Shown: positions 2,128 to 55,878 of the stretch, in pieces
Numbering within the stretch: position 1 is the stretch's first letter
Layout of the letters: each line of letters opens with the position of its first letter
Assembly: GCA_028583405.1 (NCBI GenBank)
Contig: CM053247.1
Coordinates: forward strand, 9,988,946 to 10,052,945
Direction: 5' to 3'
DNA: 64,000 nucleotides
From: Pogonophryne albipinna
Taxonomy: Eukaryota; Chordata; Actinopteri; Perciformes; Artedidraconidae
Program-made: the position numbers and the translations under genes
Notes under the pieces: model-generated
The model's input: the letters and a program-made list of their open reading frames with translations, nothing else
Told to the model about the DNA's origin: nothing
Database searches by the model: none

Positions 2128-3378
2128 ATGGACCCAGCAGACAGTTTGTACGAGGTGAAGTACAATTTGACATGCTTGAGGAATGACTTTAGATATGCCT
2201 CCAGTTGTGAAGAGAGGCAGTCAGTTATTTCTGCGGCACGCCAGGAGGTAACCTCAAGGCCCTGGTTGAGGGAGTTGCTACCCGAGTGGGTGGAGGACTT
2301 TTTTGGCAGCTTTGAGGTCAAACCTGTTTCCCGGCCTGCTAGCCCCCGGCATGCTAGCCCCCTGCCTCCCAATTCCCAACCTGACACCATACGTATCGGT
2401 GTGTTCCGTCTGGAGTCAACCCCTGCTTCTTCCCCATTTCCTGCTCCTGTCCAGGAGCCGTTCTCGGGGACTCGTCTGGCTTTTGGAGGTCCACGGAGCC
2501 TCCAAAAGGCTCCTAAGAGAAGGAGTCGCTAGTCCAGGCTAGCAGCCCGAGCCCCAGAAGCCATGCTTTGTGCTCCAGTACAGGCCCCAGCAGCCATGGT
2601 TCCGGCTCCAGTACCGGCCCACACAGCCATGGTTCCGGCTCCAGAACCGGCCTACACAGCCATGGTTCCAGCCCCAGTTCTGGCCCCAGCAGCCATGGTT
2701 CCAGCCCCAGCAGCCATGGTTCCAGCCCCAGCAGCCATGGTTCCGGCCCCAGTTCTGGCCCCAGCAGCCATGGTTCCAGCCCTGGTTCCGGCCCCAGAAG
2801 CCATGGTCCCTCCTCTAGTCCCTCCTCTAGTCCCAACTCAATTCCCTTCTCAAGTCCCTCCCCTAGTCCCTCCCCTAGTCCCTCCCCTAGTCCCTTCTCC
2901 AGTCCCTACTCTAGTCCCTACTCCATCCCCCTCTCGAGTCCCTTCTCGAGTCCCCTCTCCAGTTTCCTCTCAAGTCCCCTCTCAAGTCCCCTCTCGAGTC
3001 TCCTCTCGAGTTCCCTCTCGAGTTCCCTCTCAAGTCACCTCTCGAGACCCCTCAAGTGCCAACCCTATATCCTGTGCCGTTGAAGGTTCCGCTGGAGGTC
3101 CTGCCAACTCCATGTCCTGTCCCGTTGGGGGTCCCGTTGACTACTCTTCTGCCGGGGGTCCTGCCAACCCTATGTTCTGTGCCGTTGGAGGTTCCGCTGG
3201 AGGTCCTGCCAACTCCATGTCCTGTGCCGTTGGTAGTCCCGCCGACTACTCTTCTGCCGGGGGTCCTGCCAACCCTATGTTCTGTGCCGTTGGAGGTTCC
3301 GCTGGAGGTCCTGCCAACTCCATGTCCTGTCCCGTTGGGGGTCCCGCCGACTACTCTTCTGCCGGCGATCCTGCCAAC
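2128..3378 (+). pseudogene. gag-like start plus Pro/Ala-rich repeat frame, 5' part
   Basis: An ATG at 2128, 13 bases after the 5' LTR, opens MDPADSLYEVKYNL, a start typical of fish sushi-type gag proteins. The first 135 codons end at a TAG (2530-2532). The same frame then stays open through a long Pro/Ala/Val/Ser-rich repeat up to the hAT insertion at 3379. The first ~70 residues are non-repetitive and acidic or aromatic (PEWVEDFFGSFEV), and the rest is minisatellite-encoded. No zinc knuckle or enzymatic motif is visible. The protein could be a short structural gag or simply a readable minisatellite. Conservation of the frame over about 400 codons argues weakly for past coding use. The TAG may be a recent mutation. 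Confidence 0.55.
2570..3378 (+). repeat. Coding minisatellites (15-30 bp, 12-15 bp and 105 bp units)
   Basis: Three adjacent arrays. 2570-2815 has units around CCAGCAGCCATGGTTCC. 2816-3050 has short units such as CCCTCCCCTAGT and CCCTCTCGAGTC. 3056-3378 has a 105-bp unit with starts near 3056, 3161, 3266 and 3371, continuing after the hAT insertion. All periods are multiples of three or nearly so, which keeps the reading frame open. Confidence 0.8.
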
Positions 3379-4489
3379 TAGGGGTCGACCGATTATCGGC
3401 CTGGCCGATTATCGGGGCCGATATTCCGCATTTGACCGATTATCGGTATCGGCCTTTTTTTTAAAATAAAATTGCCGATAACACTTTGACTCTGATGCGG
3501 CCGTTTCTCTGGCTGCAGTCACCACTCTCTGTACACGAGCAATGTCCCGCCCACAGCGCTATCTGATAGGCTATTACTGAAGTGTCAATCAACACTGAAG
3601 ATTTTCCGGGCGAGAGCCAGCCAGAGAGGCGGGACCTTCTCAGATTACAGGCAGGTGCGAAGAACGCAGACACAGACAGAGGCAAGCAGCAGCGCTGAGC
3701 GGCAGTGCCATACATGTGTTTCGAAGGTAAATCAGTTGAAAGCCGAAGTTCAATAAACATCCCAATCCCCTATGCTGAAGTTGCAAAAACACCACGATCT
3801 ATTGATCCAATTCTATCAGCTTCCCAGTTACACAGGGACGCGGGAAGTCAGTCAGAGTTGGGGGTGCGTGCAGCGTCTCGCAGCGGAGTAACTGTGGTGC
3901 GGAGGGGGGGCTGCGAGTGGAGCCTCGCAGTTTTTCAGGTTGATATGTGAAGCTCATTAGCTAGCCAACATGCATTTAGCAAATGTTTAGCAAAATATTA
4001 GAAGTGAGGCTACTAGACTAACGTTAGGTCTACTGTAATAGCCTCACTTTTAATAGTTTGGAAAACATTAGCTAGCACTAGTGTTTTGCAGTTGCTAGCA
4101 ATTTATTGGGATTTTATGCTAGATAGATAGGCATTGGTTTGATATAATAAATTAAGCATTATTGTTAGTTAAGCATGTCAGCCTGCAGCCCCACTTCTTG
4201 TCTCTAACTCATAGCAGATGGCTGCACTAAAGAAAAGGGCACAGAGAGGAAACTATTTGTAAGATGTTTAAAAGTTCATTAAACATAATATATGCTTAAA
4301 TGCATTTCAAAGAAGTTGTGTTGAGTTGTGTTGGAGTTTGTGTTATTCTACATTTTGACACCAAGATTTTCTGATTTTACTGCAAATGTATATCGGTTCC
4401 AAATATCGGTTATCGGTCTCCTTGATTACTAATAATCGGTATCGGTATCGGCCTTGAAAAAGCCATATCGGTCGATCCCTACTGCTAAC
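3371..4489. mobile_element. hAT element with 8-bp duplication
   Basis: The element proper is 3379-4481. It begins TAGGGGTCGACCGATTATCG and ends in a matching inverted sequence CGGTCGATCCCTA. The flanks are CTGCCAAC (3371-3378) and CTGCTAAC (4482-4489), an 8-bp duplication with one mismatch, as expected for hAT. The subterminal GATTATCGG/TATCGGT repeats are typical of fish non-autonomous hATs. No transposase is recognised inside; the frames at 3461-3760 and 3705-3950 are unrecognised. Confidence 0.88.
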
Positions 4490-5284
4490 CCTATGTCCGG
4501 TGCCGTTGGAGGTCCAGCCGACACCTGTTTCGTCGGGGGTCCTGCCAACTCCATGTCCTGTGTCGTTGGGGTTTCCGCTGAGAGTTCTGCCAACCCCATA
4601 TCCTGTTCCGTTGGAGGTCCCGCCGTCACCTGTCTCGCCGGGGGTCCTGCCAACTCCTTGTCCTCTTCCGTGGGGGATCCTGCCGACACCTGTCCCGCCT
4701 GGGGGTCCTGCCTACTCCTTGCCCTGTTGCGTTGGTGGTCCAATCGACATCAGCCATTGCTCCATCCGGGGTCCCATTGACACCAGCCCATGTTATGTCC
4801 AGCGGGTCCTGCCCGTCCTCCGGAGCTGTCCCGTCAGCGCCTACCTGCCCGTCCTCCGGAGTTCCCCAGCCGCGGTCTTCGCCCTCGAGCCCGGCCCCCT
4901 GAGAGCCGCGGTCTTCGCCCTCGAGCCCGGCCCCCTGAGAGCCGCGGTCTTCGCCCTCGAGCCCGGCCCCCTGAGAGCCGCGGTCTTCGCCCTCGAGCCC
5001 GGCCCCCTGACTCTTCCAGCCGCTGCCTTCGCCCTCATGCTCGGCCCCCTGAGTTCGCCCGCTGTGGCCTTCGCCCCTTTATGAACTCTGCCTTGCCCCC
5101 GGGCCGTCCGCCCGAGACCCCCACCATGGACTCTGCCTTGCCCCCGGGCCGTCCGCCCGAGAACCCCTCAATGAACTGTGCCTTTCCTGGGCTGTTGATC
5201 CAGACCCGTCCTCCAGACCCCCTCCACCCACCCGGTTTGAAATGTTTGACTTTGTGTAGGGACGTCTGGAATCCATCCCTTGAG
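4490..5284 (+). pseudogene. Pro/Ala-rich frame of LTR element, 3' part
   Basis: This continues the 105-bp-unit frame interrupted by the hAT. The insert plus duplication is 1111 bp, so the frame resumes one phase over and runs on at 4490-4700 with the same GGPA..SM-type units. Near 4700 the meaningful frame changes phase (short indel), and it changes again before 4800. It then encodes a 12-residue repeat built on RPRARPPESRGL and a second PPGRPPE repeat, and ends at a stop inside the 3' LTR (5323). No known domain. Codon composition is strongly GC- and C-rich compared with the AT-rich flanks. Confidence 0.45.
4869..5012 (+). repeat. 36-bp tandem repeat, 4 copies
   Basis: Unit begins GCCGCGGTCTTCGCCCTCGA, with starts at 4869, 4905, 4941 and 4977. 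Copies are almost identical, pointing to recent expansion. The period is divisible by three. Confidence 0.9.
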
Positions 5285-11091: not shown

Positions 11092-11741
11092 TGTAAGGAG
11101 GGATTGTAAGAAATTAAAATCAATGTTTAATGATGTAATATCTCATCATTTGGCTCGTCCTCTTCAATGGCGGCTGTGGTGACGTAGAGGGACCTCCCTC
11201 ATTGGTCTTCTATGTCCGATATCACGTAAAACAGAGGATTTAGACGTTGTGTTATTCATTGTATAACTCCACACGCCTCTTCTCCCCATACTCTCTTACA
11301 TGACTTTTTATTTAATGCATTTGAACGGCTGTGATCGTTATTTACGTAAAACTGGAAGTTAAGCTCACTGTTGATATTCCGGAGACTTCTTCCGGTAAAG
11401 CTTTTCAAAATAAACTTTAGCATCAACGTTAGCCACAGACGAATGCTAACCGGAAATGTTTTCACAATAAAACAGTTTTAAGATTACTGTACGTTTAAAC
11501 TAAATATAGTTAGGTGACGGAGCTTTGTTCGCTCTCTTCTCCACGGCCGCCACTGCGAGACACCGCTGCAGCTGCGCTCTTCCCACCACCTTCTGTTTGT
11601 TCCATTACCGCGCTATTGAATTAAAGTACCCATTTTAACCTTTTCAGAGACTCCATTAGTCTCTTTATTTTAAGCTTCTCTCCTGGGACGCGAGAACAAC
11701 GAATACTTCTAATACTAGCGCTCCAACCATAGGCTCCAACA
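11092..11741 (+). repeat. Possible solo or 3' LTR of a retroelement
   Basis: A purine tract AAGGAGGGAT is followed at 11108 by TGTAAGAAAT. The block then contains AATAAA near 11466 and ends shortly before the LINE in ..CTCCAACACA. A similar GAAAGGAGGGAGTAAGAAAT occurs near 10806. No second copy of the LTR lies in the window, so the ends are guesses. It could equally be unique DNA. Confidence 0.25.
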
Positions 11742-11743
11742 CA

Positions 11744-12610
11744 TTGTATGTTCACACGGTGAATCATCAGATCCTCCTTCGCACTCTCCAAGAACTTGGA
11801 GTTTCAGGCTCTGCACTTTCCCTCCTCACCTCATACCTCAAAGACCGCACCTACAGGGTTACTTGGAGAGGGTCGGAGTCCGACCCTTGTCAATTAACTA
11901 CAGGGGTCCCTCAGGGCTCTGTTCTTGGTCCCCTCCTCTTCTCCTTGTACACAAACTCGCTCGGATCTGTCATTAGCCCGCATGGTTTTTCATACCACTG
12001 CTACGCTGACGACACCCAATTAATTCTGTCCTTTCCCCGAGACCCAGGTCGTCGCACGCATCTCTGCTTGTCTAGCTGACATCTCTCAGTGGATGTCTGC
12101 TCATCACCTCAAGCTCAACCTTGACAAGACTGAACTGCTTTTCCTTCCAGGAAAAGATTGTCCCACTCTTGACCTAACAATCAACATCGGCACCTCTGTT
12201 GTTTCCCCGACTCAGACTGCAAGGAATCTGGGTGTGATCCTAGATAACAACCTGTCCTTCACTGCAAACATAGCTGCTACAACCCGCTGCTGCAGATACA
12301 CGCTTTACAACATCAGGAGGATACGTCCCCAGCTGACCCAGAAAGCGACGCAGGTTCTGGTCCAGGCTCTCGTCATCTCACGCCTAGACTACTGCAACTC
12401 CCTCCTGGCTGGTCTACCTGCATGTGCCATCCGACCTCTGCAGCTCATCCAGAATGCAGCGGCTCGTCTGGTCTTCAACCTTCCTAAATTCTCCCACACC
12501 ACTCCGCTCCTCCGCTCCCTCCACTGGCTTCCGGTAACTGCTAGAATCCACTTCAAGACAATGGTACTTGCGTACCATGCTGCGAATGGATCTGGCCCTC
12601 AAGAAATAGA
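11744..12610 (+). pseudogene. LINE reverse transcriptase (L2/CR1 group), truncated
   Basis: Codes the palm region of a non-LTR reverse transcriptase. In order it has TVNHQILLRTLQELG, GVPQGSVLGPLLFSLYTNSL, the catalytic YADDTQL (about 12000), then WMSAHHLKLNLDKTELLFLP, NLGVILDNNLSF, LDYCNSLLAGLP and LHWLPVTARIHFKTM. A one-base shift near 12050 separates frame 11744-12079 from 12093 onward. The endonuclease domain and everything N-terminal are missing, as usual for 5'-truncated LINEs. The C-terminal ~60 codons are deleted after SGPQ (about 12597). The same family's C-terminal piece and tail occur at 26148-26465. The catalytic aspartates are intact, but the protein cannot be complete. Confidence 0.9.
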
Positions 12611-13625
12611 ATTATTAAAGGTCACATGTCATGCTTTTCCGGTTATTACCCGTCCCCTTGTGTGTTATGAAGGTTTTTATGCATGTAAATGGTGTGCAGA
12701 GTCAAAACCCTCAAAGTACACCATGTAGCGAGTAAACTCGACCACAGAAAATACCTCCCCAAAACGCCTCGTTGGAGATACGTCACTGTCCATTTGATTC
12801 TTCCGGGTACATCATGATGTCATGTCGTCCCCGGAACGAAATGGACCAATCCGTGGAGCCGTTACGTTACGTCCGCGGAGCCGTTACGTTAAGCCCCCGC
12901 TGATTGGTCCAAATTGACCAATCCACGGACTTCCTCACACACTCAGTGCAGGCAGCTCTGCTGATTTCTCCTCCCTGGCTGCAGGCTGATAACAGACAGT
13001 TGGGATCACGGTGAAATTCTCTCTGCAGACCCATTCTCACAGCGTTTATCAACCTTTTTCTTACTCAATATCAAGCCACACTTATTGTTTTTACTTCGGC
13101 TGTGACTTTGTGTGTGCTCAGGGTGAGTTTGGCTGTTTTTCGCTGTGTATCGCTAAACAAGGAAAACACACCTCCACGGAGCTCAGCTCGATTCACAACG
13201 TCCCGACTGGTCCCGACCAATCGGAGCACACTGGGCTCACAGGGAGGGGAGGGCAAGAGCTGCAACGAGCCGTTTAGTGGAGAGAGTGAATACTGCTGAA
13301 TACACATACTTTACAGAGATGCTGTATGCGAAACCAATGTGAGTTTGGAAAATTGCACAGTATAAATCTATTCTAGTAGACCTCAACAATGGAATTATGA
13401 TCAGTGGAAATGGCCATGACATGGGACCTTTAACAAAGCACTTATATACTAATAAAGGACTGGCTTACCTAAAGCCAGTTGAGTAGCACTTGAAATGTTT
13501 TTCCTCTTTGAAACCTGATGTACTTATATGATTCTGTTTTCTTCAAGTTTGTATTTTGTTGGTCGAACGCACTTATTGTAAGTCGCTTTGGATAAAAGCG
13601 TCAGCTAAATGCAATGTAATGTAAT
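11753..13625 (+). mobile_element. 5'-truncated L2-like LINE
   Basis: Reverse transcriptase fragment (11753-12600), then 3' UTR resuming at 13434 after a MITE. It ends in GTAAGTCGCTTTGGATAAA, AGCGTCAGCTAAATGCAATG and repeats of TGTAA, the stem and tail used by L2-type LINEs and partner SINEs in fish. 13434-13625 matches 26275-26465 closely. Confidence 0.9.
12615..13433. mobile_element. TTAA-MITE family B inside the LINE
   Basis: Flanked by TTAA at 12615-12618 and 13430-13433. Ends are AGGTCACATGTCATG and CATGACATGGGACCT, a 15-bp inverted repeat with one mismatch. Removing one TTAA and the element restores the LINE 3' UTR as in the copy at 26260. The TTAA target points to piggyBac- or Kolobok-type mobilisation. 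No coding capacity: frames at 13011-13307 overlap on both strands. Confidence 0.88.
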
Positions 13626-30040: not shown

Positions 30041-31240
30041 ATCAGAATCCGAATCAGAAACAGGTTTATTGCCAGGTAGGTTCACACATACGAGGACTTT
30101 GACTTGATGTCATGGTGCATACATAAAATATAAAACAAGAAATCTAATACAAAACAAAAAATCTTTAAGGACACCGTAATAAAATATATTTAAATAGCAA
30201 TAAAATAAAGCAGTCATTTACATGGAAATAGAATGAATAAATTATAGGATATAAAATATGAAATATCAAACAAGAAATATGTGCAGTAAGCAGTATGAAC
30301 ATGCATTAATGTAATGCATATAGAGACTGCGTTGTGTCCGAGGTAAAGTGTCAGTGGGGGGGGGCCGGGCCTTGTTTAAGAGGCCGGTAGCGGAGGGGAA
30401 GAAACTGTTCAGGTGGCGAGAGGTGTTGGTCCTGATGTAGCGCAGCCTCCTGCCAGAGGGGAGGGGGGTGAACAGTTTGTGTCCAGGGTGGGAGGGGTCG
30501 GCCACTATCTTCCCTGCCCGCCTCAGGGTCCTGGAGGCGCGCAGGTCGTGGAGGGATGGCAGATTACAGCCGATCACCTTCTCTGCAGAGCGGATGAGCC
30601 GCTACAGCCTGCCCTTTTCCTTAGCTGTGGCTGCAGCGTACCAGATGGTGATGGAGGAGGTGAGAATGGACTCGATGATGGAGGTGTAGAAGTTCACCAT
30701 CATCGTCTTTGGCAGGTTGAATTTCTTCAGCTGCCTCAGGAAGAACATCCTCTGCTGTGCTTTTTTGATGAGGGAGCAGCTGTTCTGCTCCGATTTCAGG
30801 TCCTGGGCGATGATGGTGCCCAGGAAGCGGAAAGACTCCACAGCAGTTACTGGGGAGTCACACAGAGTGATGGGGGCGGGTGGGGCTGCGTACTTCCTGA
30901 AGTCCACAACCATCTCCACTGTCTTGAGAGCGTTGAGCTCCAGGTGGTTGTCCCCACACCAGGTCACCAGATGGTCCATCTCCCACCTGTAGGCAGACTC
31001 GTCCCCACCAGAGATGAGTCCGATGAGCGTGGTGTCGTCTGAACTTCAGGAGCTTGACAGACTGGTGACTGGAGGTGCAGCTGTTGGTGTACAGGGAAAA
31101 GAGCAGAGGGGAAAGAACGCAGCCTTGAGGGGAACTGGTGCTGATGGTCCGGGGGTCAGAGACGTGTTACCCCAGCCTCACGTGCTGCTTCCTGTCAGAC
31201 AGGAAGTCTGTGATCCACCTGCATTGGTGAGTCACAGCCA
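30041..31240 (-). mobile_element. 5'-truncated LINE, minus strand
   Basis: Reverse transcriptase frames run from about 31215 down to 30266, then a 3' end containing (on the plus strand) ATCAGAATCCGAATCAGAAA CAGG TTTATTGCCAGGTAGGTTC, a tail of short GAATC repeats common to a fish LINE family. It abuts a TTAA MITE at 31243. Confidence 0.88.
30266..31215 (-). pseudogene. LINE reverse transcriptase, 3' half, broken
   Basis: Minus-strand reading in order: WITDFLSDRKQHVRLG, a stop, SPQGCVLSPLLFSLYTN, a frameshift, the catalytic-region DDTTLIGLISGGDESAYR, then HLVTWCGDNHLELNALKTVE, SFRFLGTIIAQDLKSE, QQRMFFLRQLKKFNLPKTMM and IWYAAATAKEKGRL. The second frame (30577 down) has VIGCNLPSLHDLRAS, LRRAGKIVADPSHPGHKLF and a terminal SRHLNSFFPSATGLLNKA. 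The order matches the palm, thumb and C-terminal tail of a fish non-LTR reverse transcriptase. The YADD-type motif is damaged to FRDD by an indel. N-terminal domains are absent. The plus-strand frames here are antisense shadows. Confidence 0.88.
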
Positions 31241-35008: not shown

Positions 35009-35450
35009 AGTGCTTAAAGGATAATATGTCAGTCCAAACGGATGGATAGCATCACTAACACTAACTTTACCATGAACACATAACTTCAAATTCAACAGCA
35101 CTGATTGCAGTGCTAGACTTAGTTTTACCTTATTCGTGAGATAAGATAAGATGAGATATACTTTATTTGTTGACGGAAATTTGTTTTGTACTCCGTCCTG
35201 TGGTTCCACAAATGCAAAAAAAACATACATACATAGTACACGATAAAAGACTATAACATATTAACACATGACTTCAGTACATATAAACAGATTGCACATA
35301 CACGTATACATTGAAACATACTGACAATGGTGACCTGTTGTACAAACCCCATGACCAACATTGAACCGATACATTACATTTGATTGTTGAGAGGCTTGAT
35401 GGACACAAATGTAATTGGTCACTTTATTTTGTGTTAATCAAGACCATGCA
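35009..35450. other. Unique DNA plus LINE tail
   Basis: 35141-35300 is entered as a LINE tail. The remainder shows nothing. Confidence 0.5.
35141..35300 (-). mobile_element. LINE 3'-end fragment (AGATAAGATATACTTTATT type)
   Basis: GATAAGATAAGATGAGATAT ACTTTATT followed by a partly conserved segment is the complement of a teleost LINE 3' end with GATAA repeats. No coding sequence. The right boundary is approximate. A related piece lies at 50424-50620. Confidence 0.55.
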
Positions 35451-35452
35451 TA

Positions 35453-36197
35453 CCCAGGGGGCAAAACCCACTTTTTTAGGAAATCAGACATGGAATGTTG
35501 TAAAAGGTTGTCCACCAGAAATGATATCTAGGACCTTCAAGGATCACAACCTGGGTGGACAACCCGGTCAACTAGCTACTGGAAAGTTACAGTGTGGGTC
35601 CAAACAATGCAACCCCTGTATGAAAAAAAGTCAAATATTCTGGCTCGATCAGATGCCATCATTCTCTTTCTGATTGAATATCTCTGTGACAGTTCATAGT
35701 AAAGACAAACTGAGCCAACCTATTGAAAGAGCAGAAAATAAGCTTTCAGGTGATGCCTTGGTTAAGCCTGTTCTCAATAAGGCCACTAGATGGCTCTGTG
35801 CCTTTTTTGTCTCTCCAAAGCGAAATCCATTTCAAGCAATGCACTCGTGGTCCTCTGGATTGTTTGCTGTGTTCTAAATGGGTAAATATACTTAAACGAT
35901 TATTTCTATATAACATATTGAAGGGTTTACATTAATATACACAAGGTTTGCTGCCGATGCTAAGTTGAATTGTTTCAATGTTTACAGATTTTTCAGTTTA
36001 CAGACTGGAAAGCTAAAGGCAGCAAAATTCGAAATGGCCGCCGCTTTCTTTGCAAAACCCTTGAATTGAAGGTTTTATATGTTATAAGACAAGGAAAACT
36101 GAGTTAAACTTATCTGGAAGTTGACATTAAGTTCAACTTAATGTCAAATCAATACCCTTTTATTATTTGTGCAAATTAATGTATCCTATTTTGATCA
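35453..36197 (+). repeat. Left terminal inverted repeat (~745 bp)
   Basis: Complementary to 40311-41064 with few mismatches, for example AGGAAA near the outer end and a ~20-bp deletion near the inner end, after CAAATTAATG. It contains the frame 35380-35877 with one in-frame TGA (35671-35673), with CGSKQCNPCMKKS and FFVSPKRNPFQAMHSW. 36199-36265 repeats part of the arm (35926-35990) directly. Confidence 0.92.
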
Positions 36198-36784
36198 GGT
36201 TTACATTAATATACACAAGGTTTGCTGCCGATGCTAAGTTGAATTGATTCAATGTTTACAGATTTTCCAGCAAGTGAGAGGATTTTAAGCTAGCCAGCAC
36301 TGTTACTGTAAGCAAAAATTATTTAATAATTTGTAAATCAGTTGTACAGTATTATTCATTTAATCAATATATATATATTTATTATCATTTGATTAAGTGT
36401 TTCATGTGTGTAATCTTTTTGTTTGTGCAGTGCTGTATGGATGAATACCATGCCACCTTGACATTCACACTTTAAAACCTCTTGATCGCGATTGCCCCTG
36501 GTACCGGGGGCAGACGCAGCATCTTGTAAGAAACACCATCCCAGGGCTTGTTAATATTTAACAACCTATTAATGTGGCATACCCACTTAACGGGAAGAAA
36601 CTCAGCTAATAGAGGATAATAACCATTTTACCTAACGGAACACAATTCCAACACCAAGCGTCTAAATCAGCACTTAAAAAAAACATGCTAACGCTACATT
36701 AGCGTTACCTTAGCATCTGGCGTATCAACACCTTTGGGCATAGCCACTACCTACCACTTATTCAACCAGACACGTAGTAAATCA

Positions 36785-37950
36785 CTCATTATGATGAACA
36801 ACAGATTGGGGCTTGGGATCAGTTATGAACGTTATGCAGTTATGCAGCGTCAGCTGACAGCACAAAGTTAGAAGGTCATGCAGCAGGTTGAAACTGATGG
36901 TGTTTACATCCCAGAAACCATGATGAAAAACAGCGAGATCCCCCATGTGTTTGCCATGGACAATCTGGACTGGAAGAAGACACTGGAGGGTGGGAGTTTG
37001 AATGCCACCACTGCAATCATAATTGAAAACCAAAAGATTGTGCAGGTCCAGGAGGGTGCCAGACTCCCCACTTCTACCTCAGACAGAAAGAAGACTCTCT
37101 CAGTACCTGCTCCCATGTGTCACGTCTCCGCTAAAGACAGGCAGAGGTCCAGATCACTTGAGCATATTGAGAAGCTAGAGAGTCTGGATACTTCCTCAGA
37201 TGGCACAGCTGAAGACCTGTTACTTATGTGGCATCTAGCAAGAATGGCTACAACTTCAGAATTGCTGGATGCTCCTCCAGATGCAGAAGCAGGACTGCCT
37301 GGCTTTTCTGCCTTCTGTGCAGACCTCCACCCACACAGACCGGCCAGTATCATTGGCTATCTTCCTCTCATCCCAGCATCTCTAACTGATCCTGCTGTCC
37401 TGAAAGAAGAAATTAAATGGCTGATCAAGACATCACATGCACTGGGAGACAAGTATACCATTATCATTGGAGATCAGGCTACATATGAACTCGCAGTTGT
37501 CATCAAAGACAAGCACAGAGATGAGTTCTGCAATGTAGTCCTGCTGCTGGGAGGATTTCACCAAGCTCATAACTACATGAAGGCTGTTTGCAAGATCATC
37601 AGGGATGCAGGTGCAGAGGATATTCTTGTTGCAGCTGGTCTGTTTCAGGAAGGGACTGCCAAGAAGATGTTTGGTGAGAAGGCTGAGCACTACCAAACCA
37701 TGCATGCTCTCAGGATCCTCAGTGAGGCCATGTGGCGCTTGTACTGGCAAGCATTTGAGGCATGTGCAGCAGACAGAGAAACACAACACTGGCAGTCACA
37801 AGTAGAACATGTTGTGAAGATGTTGTTTGAGAAAGACACCACTGCTACTGAGAAGTTAGAGATCATCCAGATATCACGTCCACAGATATCAATCCTACAA
37901 GAACAGATGTTACTTTTCCAGGAATCTCTGCAGTTTTCTGGTGAATCTTT
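36785..37950 (+). pseudogene. Long-TIR transposon protein, N-terminal/middle part
   Basis: A readable frame from about 36790 (LGLGISYERYAVM) passes a TAG at 36866-36868 and continues as the 36878 frame. Visible family landmarks are HVFAMDNLDWKKTLEGGSLN, where relatives read AVDNIDHNPSATT, then KYTIIIGDQATYELAV, NVVLLLGGFHQAHNYMKAV, EDILVAAGLFQEGTAKKMFG and MHALRILSEAMWRLYWQAFE. Family function is unproven; it occurs with transposon ends here, so a transposase role is inferred. About 400 residues expected upstream are not found. Reading shifts phase near 37950. Not a host gene. Confidence 0.7.
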
Positions 37951-37956
37951 CTGGAG

Positions 37957-38787
37957 ATGTCAGACATTCTCCACAGGTTCATCTACTACCAGCGGGAAGG
38001 TTACTGGGCAGGACATTTCTGTGAATCAGCACGAATGCTACCTTACCACACTGCAGCAGGACACTACAAATATGAGCAGCAGTCTTTGCGTCTGTATTTG
38101 TCTGAGATGAAGAAACTGCCAGAGACAGCCCCTGAGGCACATGAAGCACTGATGGCAGGTGCATTTGTTGGAAGGAGAGCAGATGGCAACCACAATGGTG
38201 TCTCTCCTGACATGCTTCTGGAGCAGACATATAATGCAGATGCCAAGGAGGCAAGTGGTCTGGATGACATTACACTCAATCATGCTGCCAGGATGAAGTG
38301 GGTCTACACAAAACCACTCACTGCAGCTATCTCTGCAGAGCTCAAGTCTATGCTGCACCTCCATTCCTCCAGCCCCCACCATGAATCTGGTTGGAGTTGT
38401 GTCAACAGGGATGCAGAGATGGTAGTCAAGGTCATGGCAGCAGTAGAGACCAACCCATTCACTACAGCCACACCATCCCTGATCAATATATCTACTGGTG
38501 AGTGTGCAGATCCCACAGTCAAGGACAACCTGACAAGTGTGAAAGCAGATGGTTTGAAGGCGTTGTCAGAGTCACTGTCCAGTGACCAGAAGAAGACAAG
38601 TGTTGTAAAGCTAAACACCTTCCATACACAAAACAGGATGAAACCAAAGAAGTCTGGGAAAACCTCTTCACCTTGCAAGAGCAATGAAGTCACTGCCCTT
38701 CTGCGCATGACCCAAATCATTGCCAGTGGTGGAGAACTCAACATTGTTGACTTCCCCCAGCCCTCTTCCAGGAAGATGGCAAAATGA
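37957..38787 (+). pseudogene. Long-TIR transposon protein, central part
   Basis: Continues the preceding piece one phase over. It has SDILHRFIYYQREGYWAGHF, MLPYHTAAGHYKYEQQSLRL, EMKKLPETAPEAHEALMAGA and DGNHNGVSPDMLLEQTYNAD, which correspond in order to the conserved centre of the family (..ML.YF.A..H.NYARW...L..M..LP...PE....F..G.F..). Then comes a less conserved Ser/Thr/Lys-rich linker to a stop at 38785-38787. No catalytic motif of a classical DDE enzyme is recognised. The boundary with the next segment is another phase change. Confidence 0.7.
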
Positions 38788-38864
38788 GTACAGGGACCAA
38801 GGCGAGCCTTGTGAAGATCTTGAAAGAGAAAACCAAAGACACTGGTCTTTCCACAGAGGAGAAG

Positions 38865-39930
38865 GATTTGGAGTGATCGCTGAGCGATACAGGCACCTGC
38901 TGCTGAATGATGTGCCTCCTGGCACTGACATCATACACTTCTGTTGAGACAGATACAGTATAACCAGCCTCAAGTCAGCTGAGCAGGAACAGAGATATGC
39001 CAGATCCAAACCAGCGAAAGTGTATGAAGTCAGTGAGCAGTACACAGCTCTGGATCCAAAGGAGTTTTTTGCAGTGTCTGCTAACAAAGCAAACCTGCTG
39101 AGCCTCCTTTGTGAGAAGTGGTGTGAGGATGAACAACTGGAACCTGGTCTTGGCCCCACTCATCTCTACCTGGGTGGTGGATTCAAAGAAGAGACGAAGA
39201 GTGTGGTGCTCACAGCATGGTCTGTTATGGATGTTCCTGCTCTTGAATCAACACAGCATGAGGCTGACACTAGGATCTTCCTCCACATTCTCTACAGTGT
39301 CCAGAATGAGGGAGTTGACAGAGTTGTCGTATGTCAATGACACCTACATCATTACCAGATGCCTGTACTATGGTGCTACGCACCTCAGTGATCTAACAGA
39401 GCTGTGGGTGAGAACAGGCCAGAATGCATACCTGCCTATACATGAAATGGTTGTGGCACTGGGACCTTCACAGTGTTGTGCCATGCCCTTCATCCACAGT
39501 CTGAGTGGTAGAGATACCACTAGTTATCCATATTTCACTGGCAAGAGGGCATGGTTCAAGAGCAGCATGAGTCTGGACATACCTGCACTTGAAGAGTTTG
39601 GTGAGAACCCCGCCAATGCCATAACAGATTACCTCCTCAATCAGGCACGAGACCTCACCATAACTGTATATACATCCAAAGCTGATCACTTTGAGGGTTC
39701 TGATCTGGGCAAACTGAGAACATACAAGTTCCTGAACAACAAATTGTCGCTCCTAAAGCTACTACCCCCAACAGAGAATGCATTTTTGCTGCACCTGAAA
39801 AGAACGCACACATCACCAAGCCATAAATCCCCCCATGCACAGAATTGGGATGGTCTCTGGACAATGGATAGTTCCAGTACCATCTACAAAGCCAGCTTGG
39901 CCTGTGTCGATGAATAAGACAATCTCATTT
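38865..39930 (+). pseudogene. Long-TIR transposon protein, nuclease-like C-terminal part
   Basis: The frame reads VIAERYRHLLLNDVPPGTDI, a TGA (38945-38947), then the 39020 frame with LDPKEFFAVSANKANLLSLL, THLYLGGGFKEETKSVVLTA and ESTQHEADTRIFLHILYSVQ. After a shift near 39335 it reads NDTYIITRCLYY, LGPSQCCAMPFIHSLSGRDT, TSYPYFTGKRAWF and a tail to 39917. Relatives have EADT, (E/S)DTDV and (S/T)GCDTTS at these places. Spaced acidic residues of this kind recall XPG/FEN-PIN nucleases. Here the middle motif is NDTY, losing one Asp. The usual Cys-rich C-terminal knot is decayed. Confidence 0.7.
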
Positions 39931-40310
39931 GGCTGTCAGAATAAGGCAGTTCCATGCTACATAGGGTGCCGTTACCAAGGACTGATGCACCAAATGCAGA
40001 AGGATACACACTGCCACACTTGAGAGCAGTGACAGCAGCTGTGACTCAGAAAATGAATAGAAAGCAAAAAGCTTTCTGGGACACTACCATGAATACCACC
40101 ATGTGTACATTGAAAACATTTGTACTGTATATTCAGTGTAGGTTACTTTTTTCCCTTTTCTTCTTAAAAAATTCACATTTTTCTAGTTCTGGGCCATGTG
40201 AATGATTATTTTGTGTTCAACTTCTGATCATATCTGTTGATTTTTCGTTAATAACTAAGAAGAGAGTATGTGAAATAAATGTTTTGCCACCAGGAATTTT
40301 GTTTATTTCA

Positions 40311-41064
40311 TGATCAAAATAGGATATTTTTCACAAAAACAAAGACATTAATTTGCACAAATAATAAAAGGGTATTGATTTGACATTAAGTTGAACTTAA
40401 TGTCAACTTCCAGATAAGTTTAACTCAGTTTTCCTTGTCTTATAACATATAAAACCTTCAATTAAAGGGTTTTGCAAAGAAAGTGGCGGCCATTTTGAAT
40501 TCTGCTGCCTTTAGCTTTCCAGTCTGTAAACTGAAAAATCTGTAAACATTGAAACAATTCAACTTAGCATCGGCAGCAAACCTTGTGTATATTAATGTAA
40601 ACCCTTCAATATGTTATATAGAAATAATCTTTTAAGTATATTTACCCATTTTGAACACAGCAAACAATCCAGAGGACCACGAGTGCATTGCTTGAAATGG
40701 ATTTCGCTTTGGAGAGACAAAAAAGGCACAGAGCCATCTAGTGGCCTTATTGAGAACAGGCTTAACCAAGGCATCACCTGAAAGCTTATTTTCTGCTCTT
40801 TCAATAGGTTGGCTCAGTTTGTCTTTACTATGAACTGTCACAGAGATATTCAATCAGAAAGAGAATGATGGCATCTGATCGAGCCAGCATATTTGACTTT
40901 TTTTCATACAGGGGTTGCATTGTTTGGACCCACACTGTAGCTTTCCAGTAGCTAGTTGACCGGGTTGTCCACCCAGGTTGTGATCCTTGAAGGTCTTAGA
41001 TATCATTTCTGGTGGACAACCTTTTACAACATTCCATGTCTGTAAAATGACTTTGCCCCCTGGG
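40311..41064 (-). repeat. Right terminal inverted repeat (~754 bp)
   Basis: Complement of 35453-36197. It keeps the short segment (40320-40350) missing from the left arm, so the right arm is the less damaged copy. The mirrored frame (41111 to 40632 on the minus strand) shares the single stop with the left arm. Confidence 0.92.
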
Positions 41065-41066
41065 TA

Positions 41067-43829
41067 TATACAGTTATAATCATTTTTACTCATGTGTGAT
41101 TTTAATAACAAATGTAGTGATTACAAATGATCCAGCAAGATTAATTAAACCAAGCTCAATACACAATGCCTGCTTAGTTTTGGCTTTACTTTAACTGTAA
41201 TACATAATATTGGAGTAAGGAGATACCTTAAAAACCCAAAGTTTTCATTTTTGATGCCAAATGAGTGTTTGTAACGGTTTAGCGTGCTTTGGTGAACCCG
41301 TAATCTCCTAGCAGTATAGGTGAGAGCTGGAGCTCTTGGTGAAGTGGGTGGGATCAGACATATTTTGTTGTGCCTGTCTAATGATGGACTGCTTATAGAT
41401 GTTTTGGAGAGATGGATGTTTTTAACCCCCATCATTTGAATAGCAGTCTGTACCTACCAGGCGAGTGATCTTTAAACATGAATCTCTAACACAGCATAAA
41501 CCTCTGCTTAACTCCGATGGCCCTAAGTCGAAGCAAAACATATATATCCGCTGTTGACTATTAACATGGACCCTCCAGCTTAGTGCACTATCATGTGAAC
41601 TCCCAGGTATTTACAGGAGCTGACCTGTGTTGTGATGGGTAGTTTATGGAGAACTACCAGCCTTTGTGCACTTTGTGAATAAATAGATGACCTTTATAAT
41701 TCCCGACAACTTCCATTGTCTCATTTAGCCACTTAATGGCAACAGCCTTAACCGTGATATCTTTATAATACACAAAGAAAGAAACACACGTTAAAATATA
41801 TTATAGAACTTATTTCAGGCACCTAAGTAAAAAAAAACATTTAAATTTGAGACAGACAAATTGACTATTTGTGTTAAGAAATACAATTTAATTTTGTATT
41901 GGCCAAAGAATTCACATTCCTGTTGCATTTCCAAATCCCATTTTCAAGAGGGAACTAGTAAAATCATGTACATGTATCTCTGATTGAGGAATGTTCATGC
42001 CAAAACATTTATTCAAAAGGATCATTGTTAATGTATTTGATTTGTTTTTCAATCAATCCGTTTTGCTATAATATGCACTTGCAACAATGTGGCGTGATTA
42101 CATTTGCTGTAATGTCAAGGTAACTCAAAACACTTGTATTTAAATATGGTGAGAGAGTCTGACTTTAAGAACCAAACAGAATGTGTTTCATTTTTAACAA
42201 TAACAATATGTAATGGAGGATAAAATATCAATGATTATATGACTCCAGATCTCATACTTGATCAAATGAAATAACATAATACAGAGATATATAGTTTTGT
42301 GCAATACATGACAACTGTCAGACAAGACAAATCATGATACCAATGGTTGCTCTTTTGGTACTTTTTATCTGCACTTTCAGATCATAAACACTCTGCAGAG
42401 GAGCACTGCTTGTGTATAAATGAAGCTAGTTGAAGCTGAGCCTCTCCTTTTAGTCACAGCGACACACAATATGTCTAATGAGGCACCCGGATGAAGTAGT
42501 TTGTTGTCTCGTGTAACCAGATGGATGTAGGCTGTGATTAAAACCAATTAACTCTCCCCCAGATCTAAACAACTTTTCGGTCATTAATGCACATATTTTA
42601 CACCTCATTAGAGGCACGGTGATTGGAGGTAGGGGGGGAAAAGAGAAAGGAGACTCATTTGCATTTTAGATTCACAATATGCTTAGAATGGGAAACCAGG
42701 ATATGTATGCAGAGAGTAAGAAAGATGATGGGAACGGGTTTAAAACACTCCAGGCCACATCTGTGTGTGCTGAACGAGCTTCTGGAGGTGACACATGACT
42801 TCTTCTAATTAACTGTAAGATTTTGGGGGGGGGGTGATGGTGTAATGGCCGTGGCAATCATTTCCCCTCATCCCCCTCCCTGCGCTGAAATGTGCATCGT
42901 GGGGTGAAACGGGCAAGATGTTAACTAATTTTATTTTTAATCTTCCCTTTTGCCGCCGAGCGTGTCGTTCGGCTATCGCGTCTTCTGAAATTTCCTCGCC
43001 TCTTTCATGGAAACATATTGGGGCAGAATTCGCCAGCTGTCAGCCTCCTCTCCCTTCTGCTGCCATTATCCTCAGGCCCCACCCCACCTTATGGCCGGCC
43101 AGCCTGCCAGGAACGGGGCCTGTCCAAAATCAAAAGGTGGCTCTTTTCAATTCAGGCCGTCCCCAAACCCATAAGCCAACCCCCCACCCCCCACCCCGCA
43201 TCCTACACCCTCCACCCGTGCGTACAACGGTGACGCTTCACAAACACGCGATGCATGTTTCTTGCCACGATGCATATCATACACAAGGCATGGCTTTGGC
43301 TCTCCAACTCGTGATAGTGCCTCTCGTGTGACCATATGCCAACCCCTCCATCCCCTTCACCCACACCCACCCTACCCCCTCCCTTTCTACTACTATACCA
43401 CCCTTACCAACCTCATCCTCCCTCAATATTTTTTATGCACACAATCTATAGAAAAGGCTTTTCGCAATTGCAATACCCTTCCTTTTTACTCTCATTCACA
43501 CAAAATAAGGACTTTATTGTTTACTACAAAGTTGATTGCTGAATTGGGTTGAGTAAAAACAAGCTTTGTATAGACATAATATCATAATAAATCGATTAAA
43601 GAATTAAAAAAAAGTGAAAAACACATGGCAAAAAATATATACATATCAACACTGCATCTCCGTGCGTTACCTGATAATATAAAGATAAAATAAAAAGTAA
43701 AGATAAAACTTTAAAAATATTGTTTAGTTAATTAATGTAAACATAAATATAACCTTGGGAATGTTGCATAATAAAACAGCAATCCAGAAAAAACAAGACG
43801 AATGTGTACATACAATGCAATCCATATAA
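41067..43829. other. Unique DNA, no gene recognised
   Basis: Frames at 41145-41435, 42623-42808, 42918-43331 and 43262-43552 have no known domain. The 42880-43330 block is GC-rich. A G run lies at 42823-42833. Candidate regulatory DNA around 42440-42660 and 42930-43110 cannot be judged without alignment. Confidence 0.45.
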
Positions 43830-52297: not shown

Positions 52298-52809
52298 TAT
52301 TTGCGAGTTGCATATTAACTCAGGGCCGGCCCGTAGCACTGGCTAGATGTTCGCCTAGGGCGCCAGATCTGGGGAATCGCTGCGCTGGCAGTTCTGGGAG
52401 GGAAAACATTTTTTTGACCGTTGGCGCTCATCCTAATTTTCAACCTTGATGTAACAACATTCAACCCTGTCTCCTAAAAATTACGTTCCCACAGAACTAA
52501 ACTGCATTCTCAATTACGTTTAGCCAGAAACGTATTTTCTCCCACGTTATGTTCGTTATGAACGTATCTCAAATACGTTTATTTTCTACATATCTTCTAG
52601 AAACATATTTTCTCCCACGTTACGTTCGTTATGAACGTATCTCAAATACGTTTATTTTCTACATATCTTCTAGAAACATATTTTCTCCCACGTTACGTTT
52701 CTTATGAACGTATCTTAAATACGTTTATTTTCTACATATCTTTGCCATTTATTGTCTTGCTTATAATAATGATAATAGTCATTTATAAATATCATTTTAG
52801 TGCACACAT

Positions 52810-52998
52810 TTGAAATCAGTAGGCGAGGCTGTAATTTCGCCAGCTGTTACTCTCATGAGCGAGGCAGAAAATAATAGTTTTAACATGCCAAAAAGCTGCT
52901 GTGTCGTTTATTGCACCTCAAACATTAAAACAAATCCAGAGTTACGTTTTTCTGTACTTCCTCTAAGAAGAAAGGACAGTAACAGAAGATCTCTGTGA
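52810..52998 (+). pseudogene. THAP zinc-finger N-terminal fragment, left arm
   Basis: The 62-codon frame includes FNMPKSCCVVYCTSNIK, NPELRFSVLPLRRKDSN and a stop. MPKSCC..YC with C-x3-C spacing, then a (L)RF..LP strand and basic residues, is how THAP (C2CH) DNA-binding domains begin. The rest of the domain (C-x2-H half and AVPTIF) is cut off. It lies at the inner end of the left arm, as if a first exon was captured with the terminal repeat. The mirrored copy at 55058-55258 differs in CCGVYC and reads three residues further (LWLQS). Not a functional protein by itself unless spliced to something. Confidence 0.65.
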
Positions 52999-53832
52999 CG
53001 CCAGATGTGGTGTTCGTAATGCGATATGATATCCGAAAAAAAAAATCAGTTTAGGATGGCCGAAGACACTACACTACCCATAATCCCCAGCTATCGTTTG
53101 GGACTACAGTCCCGTTGACAAACCCCGTGATTAATCTTCAAACTCTGAGATTGGATGTTGGAGTGGCAGAGCGCCAAGGTTACGCCGAGCGTCAAGCTCT
53201 TTGAAATGGAACGAAACCACGGCAGACTATTCAAAACTGGACTCGAACGCCCCCCCAGAACTACACATGCTGGCTATTGTGTTTCGCAACATGTTCTCTA
53301 TTGCACGTCTCTACTGGGAATTGTAGTTTTAAAAGACGTTTTCGTTTTTCCCAAAATTAGAAGTTGACAGTATTAAACTGTGTACAGCCCTGGAGGTTTA
53401 GGCGATAGGAAACACATTGGTGTGTACACATTTAAAACATGTAATTACTAAATGGGTGAAAATCGCTTGTATCCATAATGGGCAGCATTAATATATACCC
53501 ACATGACAGCTCATTGTTACTTTGTAATTCTACTCCACTACAATTCAGAGGTTAACCTGGTATTTTTACTCCACTACATTTATTTTAGTTACTTTGCAGA
53601 TTCTGATTAATGATGTGAAATATAAACAACCCTTAAAGCAGACTTTAGTTACACCTGAGTAAAATTCAGGGAAAGGTGATTGTCAAGTGCCAAAAATCAG
53701 GAGAGATATATAGTTGGTGCTTGAGAAGACTAAACATTTATCTGCAGATCTCTATAAAGTATATTCATTACTCGTTATTCTCTACTAATAGTTAATTAAA
53801 AACTGTATTTAATTGCTATGTTTGCACATCCC

Positions 53833-53990
53833 TTTCAAGATTTCAAGATTTTCTAAGGTTTATTGACATATCATATACACAACTACGATGTAGTTATGCA
53901 ATGAATGAAAAACTTGGGTCACAGGTTCCTCAACAGTGCATTACAAGACATCTATCAATATGTGTGTACCTCCACCATTAAACTGTCATT
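53833..53990 (-). mobile_element. LINE 3'-end fragment (TTTCAAGATTTCAAGATT type)
   Basis: TTTCAAGATTTCAAGATTTT ..TTTATTGACATATCATATAC ..GTAGTTATGCAATGAATGAA ..GGTTCCTCAACAGTGCATTA matches a frequent teleost LINE terminus read in complement. It lies in the centre of the THAP element. Confidence 0.75.
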
Positions 53991-55057
53991 CTGCAAATTT
54001 CTTATACTATCTACATACATAAGAGTATAATTAATGCGTATAATATCAGTTAAAATAAATGCAGTTAACATCGCAGGAAAGCAATATATTAGACGTTAAG
54101 TACTTTGTCAGGCTTAATATTTATCTGTAGATAGATACCCCCAAAGCTTTTTTCTTATTTGAAAGAAGACCTTAACCTAAAGTACTCTTTAATGTGTTAA
54201 TAAAGGTAAACTACAAGTCCTTTTCTATCAGCTCTGCACCGTTATGGTGTAAATATAATCTACTAATTGGATCAAATATAAAAGTCAGCCGAATTACTAT
54301 TGATACTGCAAGGAGACGTATTTTGTGAAAAGAAATGCAAGATGCAGTTCTTCCAGTTTGTCCAGAAGTCTTCTCATCAGGGCTCTATAAATAAAGAACT
54401 ACGGCAGATGTGTAATATTTAATGCAGCCGAACCGTGTATTACAATGCCGTTATGTGATGACTTCCAAAGAGAAAAGCAAGAACACTCGGAATAAAGTAT
54501 TATTATATATTTTTTAAATGTTTTCGGATATCATATCGCATTAACATCATATCCCAACATGCATTGCGGCTAAAACATCCAATCAACAAGCTTCAACCTG
54601 AGGATCTTGGGTAATCTGTTCAGTGGGTTTGTGGTGTGTATCGCTTGAAATGTCCCTTATAGGCCTATGTCTGTTTCCGGTGACTTTATTTACGGTTAAA
54701 AAGCCCAAGATTATAGAATTAAACGAATAAATAAAAACAAGGATAATTGTGTGTTATTGTTGAGTAAATAACAGTGTGTTATTTCGAAAATAATAACAAA
54801 TTAGAAGGAAACAAAGATTTTCAAAAATACAGATTTCAGTATTTTGAGGCTCTGAGCCCCATTTCTTTTCCTCACAGACGGAAAAAAAGTCCGACATTAT
54901 ACGATTTAAAATAAAAACAAATAAATAAAAAGATAAAACACTGGCATGTAATTTACGTTAGAATAAATAGAATGGTTTTGAATAATAGGAGAGTAAAATC
55001 TACGTCACTTTACAGCCCCGCCCACTTTTGGGGAAACCAACGTCATTTGAACGGCGA

Positions 55058-55258
55058 TCAAGACTGAAGCCACAGAGCTCTTCTGTTACTGTCCTTTCTT
55101 CTTAGAGGAAGTACAGAAAAACGTAACTCTGGATTTGTTTTAATGTTTGAGGTGCAATAAACGCCACAGCAGCTTTTTGGCATGTTAAAACTATTATTTT
55201 CTGCCTCGCTCATGAGAGTAACAGCTGGCGAAATGACAGCCTCGCCTACTGATTTCAA
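55058..55258 (-). pseudogene. THAP zinc-finger N-terminal fragment, right arm
   Basis: Mirror copy of 52810-52998: FNMPKSCCGVYCTSNIK, then NPELRFSVLPLRRKDSN, RRALWLQS and a stop. Reads toward the element centre from the right arm. Only the first half of a THAP domain is present, followed by an abrupt end where the inverted repeat stops (55071). Both arms preserving an open frame could reflect constraint on the terminal repeat or simple recent duplication. The second Cys pair and His of the zinc site are missing. The orientation shows the element is an inverted duplication of its own 5' end. Confidence 0.65.
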
Positions 55259-55878
55259 AGGTGTGCTCTAAAATTATATTTATAAATGACTATTATCATT
55301 ATTATAAGCAAGACAACAAATGGTAAAGATATGTAGAAAATAAACGTATTTAAGATACGTTCATAAGAAACGTAACGTGGGAGAAAATATGTTTCTAGAA
55401 GATATGTAGAAAATAAACGTATTTGAGATAGTTCATAACGAACGTAACGTGGGAGAAAATACGTTTCTGACTAAACGTAATTGAGAATGCAGTTTAGTTC
55501 TGTGGGAACGTAATTTTTAGGAGACAGGGTTGCAACATTCATAATTAAGTAAATGTAACACCCTTTTCACCCCGGTTACACGTTTCATTTGCCCTGTATG
55601 ATGGGCGCTGCAAGTGATGAAAATGGGGGATGTTGGCTTATCTGGCGCCCGCAGCTCACAGCCAAAATGCGAGTGAGCGAGGGAGAGAGTGAGAGAGGGA
55701 GGGTGCACCGGTACCGGCGCTGTTGTTGTTAGCATCTGGTGCTAGCTGCTCTAACGGATATAAGAAGAAGATGTTTCTACAATCATGTGGAGGGAGAGTC
55801 CTCTCCAGTCAGACTAAGAGGCTGATAACTACAGCTCAGTGAGGTAAAGGACTCAGAGTGTTTAGATAGTTCACTTTA

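Follow-up and report, generated by a model that had tools for sequence, protein, structure and literature searches.

A decayed DNA transposon of probable Academ affinity and its broken DUF6589-related gene in Pogonophryne albipinna

The element and its broken gene

Analysis of a 64,000-nucleotide stretch of the Pogonophryne albipinna genome (assembly GCA_028583405.1, contig CM053247.1, positions 9,988,946 to 10,052,945, forward strand), hereafter the window, showed a decayed DNA transposon with long inverted arms around a single broken gene. Self-comparison of the window gave arms of 709 nt (35485-36193 and 40334-41042) with a complementarity of 98%, so the near-identical arms of the original prediction, which was made from the letters only, were confirmed. 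The 13-mer tips, CCCAGGGGGCAAA at 35453-35465 and TTTGCCCCCTGGG at 41052-41064, each occurred once in the window. Directly inside the tip, the subterminal sequence of the left end differed from that of the right end, and both types were found again in further copies. As the TA outside each tip is part of the element (see below), its limits were widened to 35451-41066, with the terminal TA counted in. The features are as follows:

35448..35450 (no strand): left flanking triplet GCA, unequal to the right triplet by flank comparison
35451..41066 (+): the entire element, 5616 bp, counting the TA at each end
35451..36193 (+): left inverted arm with tip TACCCAGGGGGCAAA and left-type subterminal sequence, defined by the arm match (35485-36193) and the tip types
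36794..37936 (+): gene piece 1, one internal stop, start of the DDE region (DUF6589, 19.3 bits); translated motifs FAMDNLD (36950-36973), GDQ (37463-37492) and GGFH (37544-37576)
37939..38760 (+): gene piece 2, in a shifted frame, with the helical part and SPDMLLEQTYN (38203-38250), which holds the putative third acid
38757..38873 (+): gene piece 3, in a shifted frame, leading into the nuclease; broken where the first nuclease aspartate would be expected
38867..39334 (+): gene piece 4, one internal stop, nuclease part with CxDRY (38936-38959) and HEADTR (39254-39283)
39336..39914 (+): gene piece 5, in a shifted frame, with NDTY (39336-39359; NDTD in relatives) and GRDTTS (39498-39536) of the nuclease
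39928..39981 (+): remnant of a cysteine-rich tail, GCQNKAVPCYIGCR, by comparison with relatives
40334..41066 (-): right inverted arm with identical tip and right-type subterminal sequence, defined by arm match and tip types
41067..41069 (no strand): right flanking triplet TAT; flank comparison gives no 3-bp duplication at the window copy

The five frame-shifted pieces belonged to one gene related to the DUF6589 proteins (Pfam PF20231), in agreement with the claim that the body codes, in pieces, for a little-described family. A 412-aa window piece scored 19.3 bits against DUF6589, below the Pfam cut-off of 27. The readable part started near residue 558 of P0001, a sea urchin protein of 1749 aa, and compared with P0001 the N-terminal third was absent, including two Cys/His clusters. 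Judged by its sequence, the window copy is incapable of activity of its own because it carries several frame breaks, has lost this N-terminal third and has a tyrosine in place of one nuclease aspartate; the first nuclease aspartate, a different residue, was unreadable.

Genomic copies, terminal TA and target duplication

The left arm as query gave at least 41 matches in the whole genome (1.07 Gb), with 40 of 52 candidates scored. The 13-mer tip occurred 44 times in the whole genome while its reversed control occurred once, and element sequence lay inside the tip in 36 of the 44 occurrences; the claim that these ends delimit a DNA transposon is borne out. TA stood directly before 35 of the 36 element-bearing tips and before none of the remaining 8. 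There were 12 candidate pairs of ends, from which C4 was dropped (its right end lacked TA), leaving 11; C14a and C14b were left unpaired, one end being truncated or altered. Both-sided TA was seen in 10 of the 11 pairs.

With the boundary placed two bases outward from CCC, equal flanking 3-mers were found in 8/11 pairs, while the other offsets from 0 to 8 outward from CCC gave equal 3-mers in only 0 or 1 of 11; mispaired flanks gave 7/110. Copy C8 was inserted in a high-copy repeat and its filled site read TAA and TCA outside the TA ends of the element. A single TAA, with no TA pair, was present at the empty site in all 13 places read, namely the C8 paralogue and 12 further ones. The uninterrupted C8 host repeat as query was found in at least 40 places including its own (40 of 1229 candidates scored), every one matched across the insertion site. 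C8:10166935-10167200 was itself part of this repeat (at least 40 places, 97-100%). The empty C8 sites and the 3-mer offsets together place the TA at the terminus of the element and set the target duplication at 3 bp, outside the TA, at the level of the family. The TA or CATA/TATA flanks of the original prediction are thus literally present as letters and are not a target duplication; the comparison of terminal-repeat copies and of filled and empty sites that it had proposed yielded the 3-bp duplication instead. A reading of TA as a 2-bp duplication with an A-rich preceding base (18/32 ends, p 0.0017; the 32 are what remains of the 35 TA-preceded ends once three whose flanks recur at another end are removed) was overturned by the empty C8 sites.

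The arms diverged by 1.9-4.5% within copies (7 copies), while the mean divergence between copies was 3.3% for the left arm and 2.6% for the right. One C9 copy is a miniature derivative of 234 bp that has both tips and a duplication of TTA. Site coverage was obtained for 12 of 15 copies at an identical 16-bp deletion, which was present in 9 (on nine different contigs) and lacking in three; two of these three, C12c and C12d, have flanks 94% alike and may be one duplicated insertion. Exact 3-bp duplications were found around the deletion-bearing copies C7, C22, C12a and C13, and empty sites were found for a fifth, C8. A common deletion in separately inserted copies shows that copies moved when already broken, which implies a transposase acting in trans. 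No intact copy was seen in a protein search of the genome with P0001 (27 of 946 candidates scored), and each of the matches listed (at least 41) covered at most 654 of the protein's 1749 residues.

Six copies (C9a, C7, C22, C14a, C12a and C5) carried an insertion of about 500 bp at one codon, near P0001 residue 846, which marks a subfamily still mobile after acquiring it; the window copy lacked it, and C8 had a gap of about 4.7 kb near the same residue.

Relatives and predicted protein architecture

Relatives were collected by protein searches that scored only the approximately 8000 candidates with the most words in common. The read-through protein gave at least 31 relatives, several of about 1590 aa, the profile at least 23 proteins, one of them new, and the divergent member P0029 at least 11, nine of them new and one from Hydractinia. 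The Pfam cut-off for DUF6589 was passed by three of six relatives scanned, and besides DUF6589 no meaningful Pfam family was found in the window pieces or these six. Their Pfam results contained no match to a helicase and, up to E 1, none to a KDZ transposase domain, although a distant kinship with KDZ (Zisupton and kin) may exist. A scan of viral contigs gave 19 pattern matches, none of which encoded a relative.

In a 21-row alignment of the relatives, the conserved acidic residues fell into two distinct sets. Intact relatives encode a single protein of about 1590 aa, in which a pair of Cys/His clusters is followed by a predicted DDE transposase domain that contains a helical insertion, by a predicted nuclease of the FEN/XPG type and by a cysteine-rich tail. 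In the VIA-align fold comparison, DDE transposases filled the first 28 rows for the DUF6589 region, with moderate Z scores and the conserved acids where expected; DDE families outside this comparison may fit as well. It is from these rows and acids that a DDE fold is proposed, since the sequence routes and Foldseek gave no significant match: a comparison of PDB sequences with the alignment profile produced a single chance match (E 3.8), and Foldseek gave nothing at E <= 0.001 for either the two-domain or the DDE model. The top Foldseek matches of the two-domain model were the nucleases Xrn1, Rat1 and FEN1 (E from 0.004), while those listed for the DDE model were unrelated proteins.

The predicted C-terminal domain has the FEN/XPG fold and acidic cluster, as in FEN1, EXO1 and XPG, which are cellular repair enzymes without a transposase fusion; the EXO1 and FEN1 rows had 10-14% identity. 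The XPG-like nuclease that had been suspected from terminal acidic motifs therefore finds support in the fold and in the conserved acids of relatives. Its proposal in place of a DDE transposase is not supported, as a DDE-type RNase H domain is predicted directly upstream in the same protein.

Probable placement in Academ, alternatives and significance

The element is very probably a decayed member of Academ, a superfamily of cut-and-paste DNA transposons, in its nuclease-bearing AcademX branch, matched by published features and not by sequence. The nuclease of AcademX is of the XPG type. Published accounts describe Academ as having a 3-bp target duplication (PMC5199201), AcademX as having a nuclease and a 3-4 bp duplication, and AcademH a helicase and 9-10 bp (PMC10045372). 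They also record Academ in zebrafish, medaka and stickleback, with absence from tetraodon (PMC4746887), and give 5565 bp as the mean size of the curated Academ elements of bivalves (PMC10294476). The predicted DDE/D domain, the predicted nuclease and the 3-bp duplication each agree with AcademX at family level, as do the size of 5.6 kb and the presence in a teleost, and no tested family feature differs; the Academ group named originally is upheld. AcademH, of the same superfamily, is set apart by the 3 bp and the missing helicase match here. A known DDE fold had been named as evidence against the original prediction, and the predicted DDE domain goes part of the way towards it, but the Academ placement is not overturned, because Academ is counted among the superfamilies with a DDD/E transposase (PMC9587614).

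The window copy, itself dead, departs from AcademX in one respect: it has no 3-bp duplication (GCA on the left, TAT on the right). Copy C9a likewise has none (CTG and TAA). The window copy is suspected to be chimeric or altered.

A separate superfamily, sister to Academ and likewise combining a DDE transposase, a FEN/XPG nuclease and 3-bp duplications, is unlikely. The comparison with Academ was by description and the matched proteins are labelled just DUF6589 or uncharacterised, which leaves room for it, but the nuclease and the 3 (3-4) bp duplication are published hallmarks of AcademX/Academ, and Academ is already reported from three teleosts. An XPG/PIN-nuclease transposon without a DDE transposase is highly improbable, as the DUF6589 region fits DDE transposases in fold rows and acid positions. 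A TA-target, Tc1/mariner-like transposon with a 2-bp duplication can practically be dismissed: TA does precede nearly all element ends and flanks nearly all pairs, but it lies inside the element, a further 3-bp repeat follows it in 8/11 pairs and the empty sites lack a TA pair. The P element and hAT (Hermes) transposases are not known to have a fused FEN/XPG nuclease. The P element resembles the Academ-like element here in fold only, its duplication being 7-8 bp (PMC5199201) against 3 bp.

Our literature search returned no paper mentioning DUF6589, none joining Academ, XPG, transposons and nuclease, and none joining Academ, AlphaFold and transposase. An explicit link between DUF6589 and Academ may thus be unprinted in the literature searched, while the family is expected to be familiar already to Repbase curators.

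Elsewhere in the window, a second inverted-repeat structure (52462-55532) had arms 102 and 367 nt long that matched at 97-98%, with 73-bp tandem units inside and CAACCCTGTCTCCTAAAAATTACGTT common to both outer ends, and is possibly another DNA transposon. Open frames at 11660-12728 (+) and 30602-31045 (-) resembled, by eye, pieces of LINE (long interspersed nuclear element) reverse transcriptase. GC-rich tandem repeats at 2517-5088, spaced at 33-36 bp and 105 bp and open in several frames, were flanked by a 224-bp direct repeat (1835 and 5400, 96%).

For the Academ-type element, a mechanism can be proposed in which the Cys/His clusters and/or the cysteine-rich tail would recognise the long inverted ends. 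The DDE domain would cut the 3' ends of the element and join them to a target site opened by cuts staggered by 3 bp, and the fused nuclease would deal with the remaining strand by removing or resolving 5' ends, flaps or a hairpin. In this scheme the catalytic identity of the acidic residues, the role of the nuclease and the binding of DNA through the Cys/His regions are all putative. A direct contribution of the fused nuclease to transposition, with the DDE domain cutting one strand per end and the FEN/XPG domain making the other cut or opening the product through its structure-specific activity, is put forward tentatively. If true, it would be a division of labour between two nucleases within one polypeptide, and animal gene-set proteins assigned to DUF6589 would be transposases of such a kind or their derivatives.

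The Pfam family DUF6589, which had no function, is tied here to a predicted DDE transposase fold and a predicted FEN/XPG nuclease fold in one protein, while the measured duplication and the empty sites provide a concrete, testable model for DNA cutting by Academ-type elements. The result also warns that the DUF6589 "uncharacterised proteins" of animals are likely transposon-derived.
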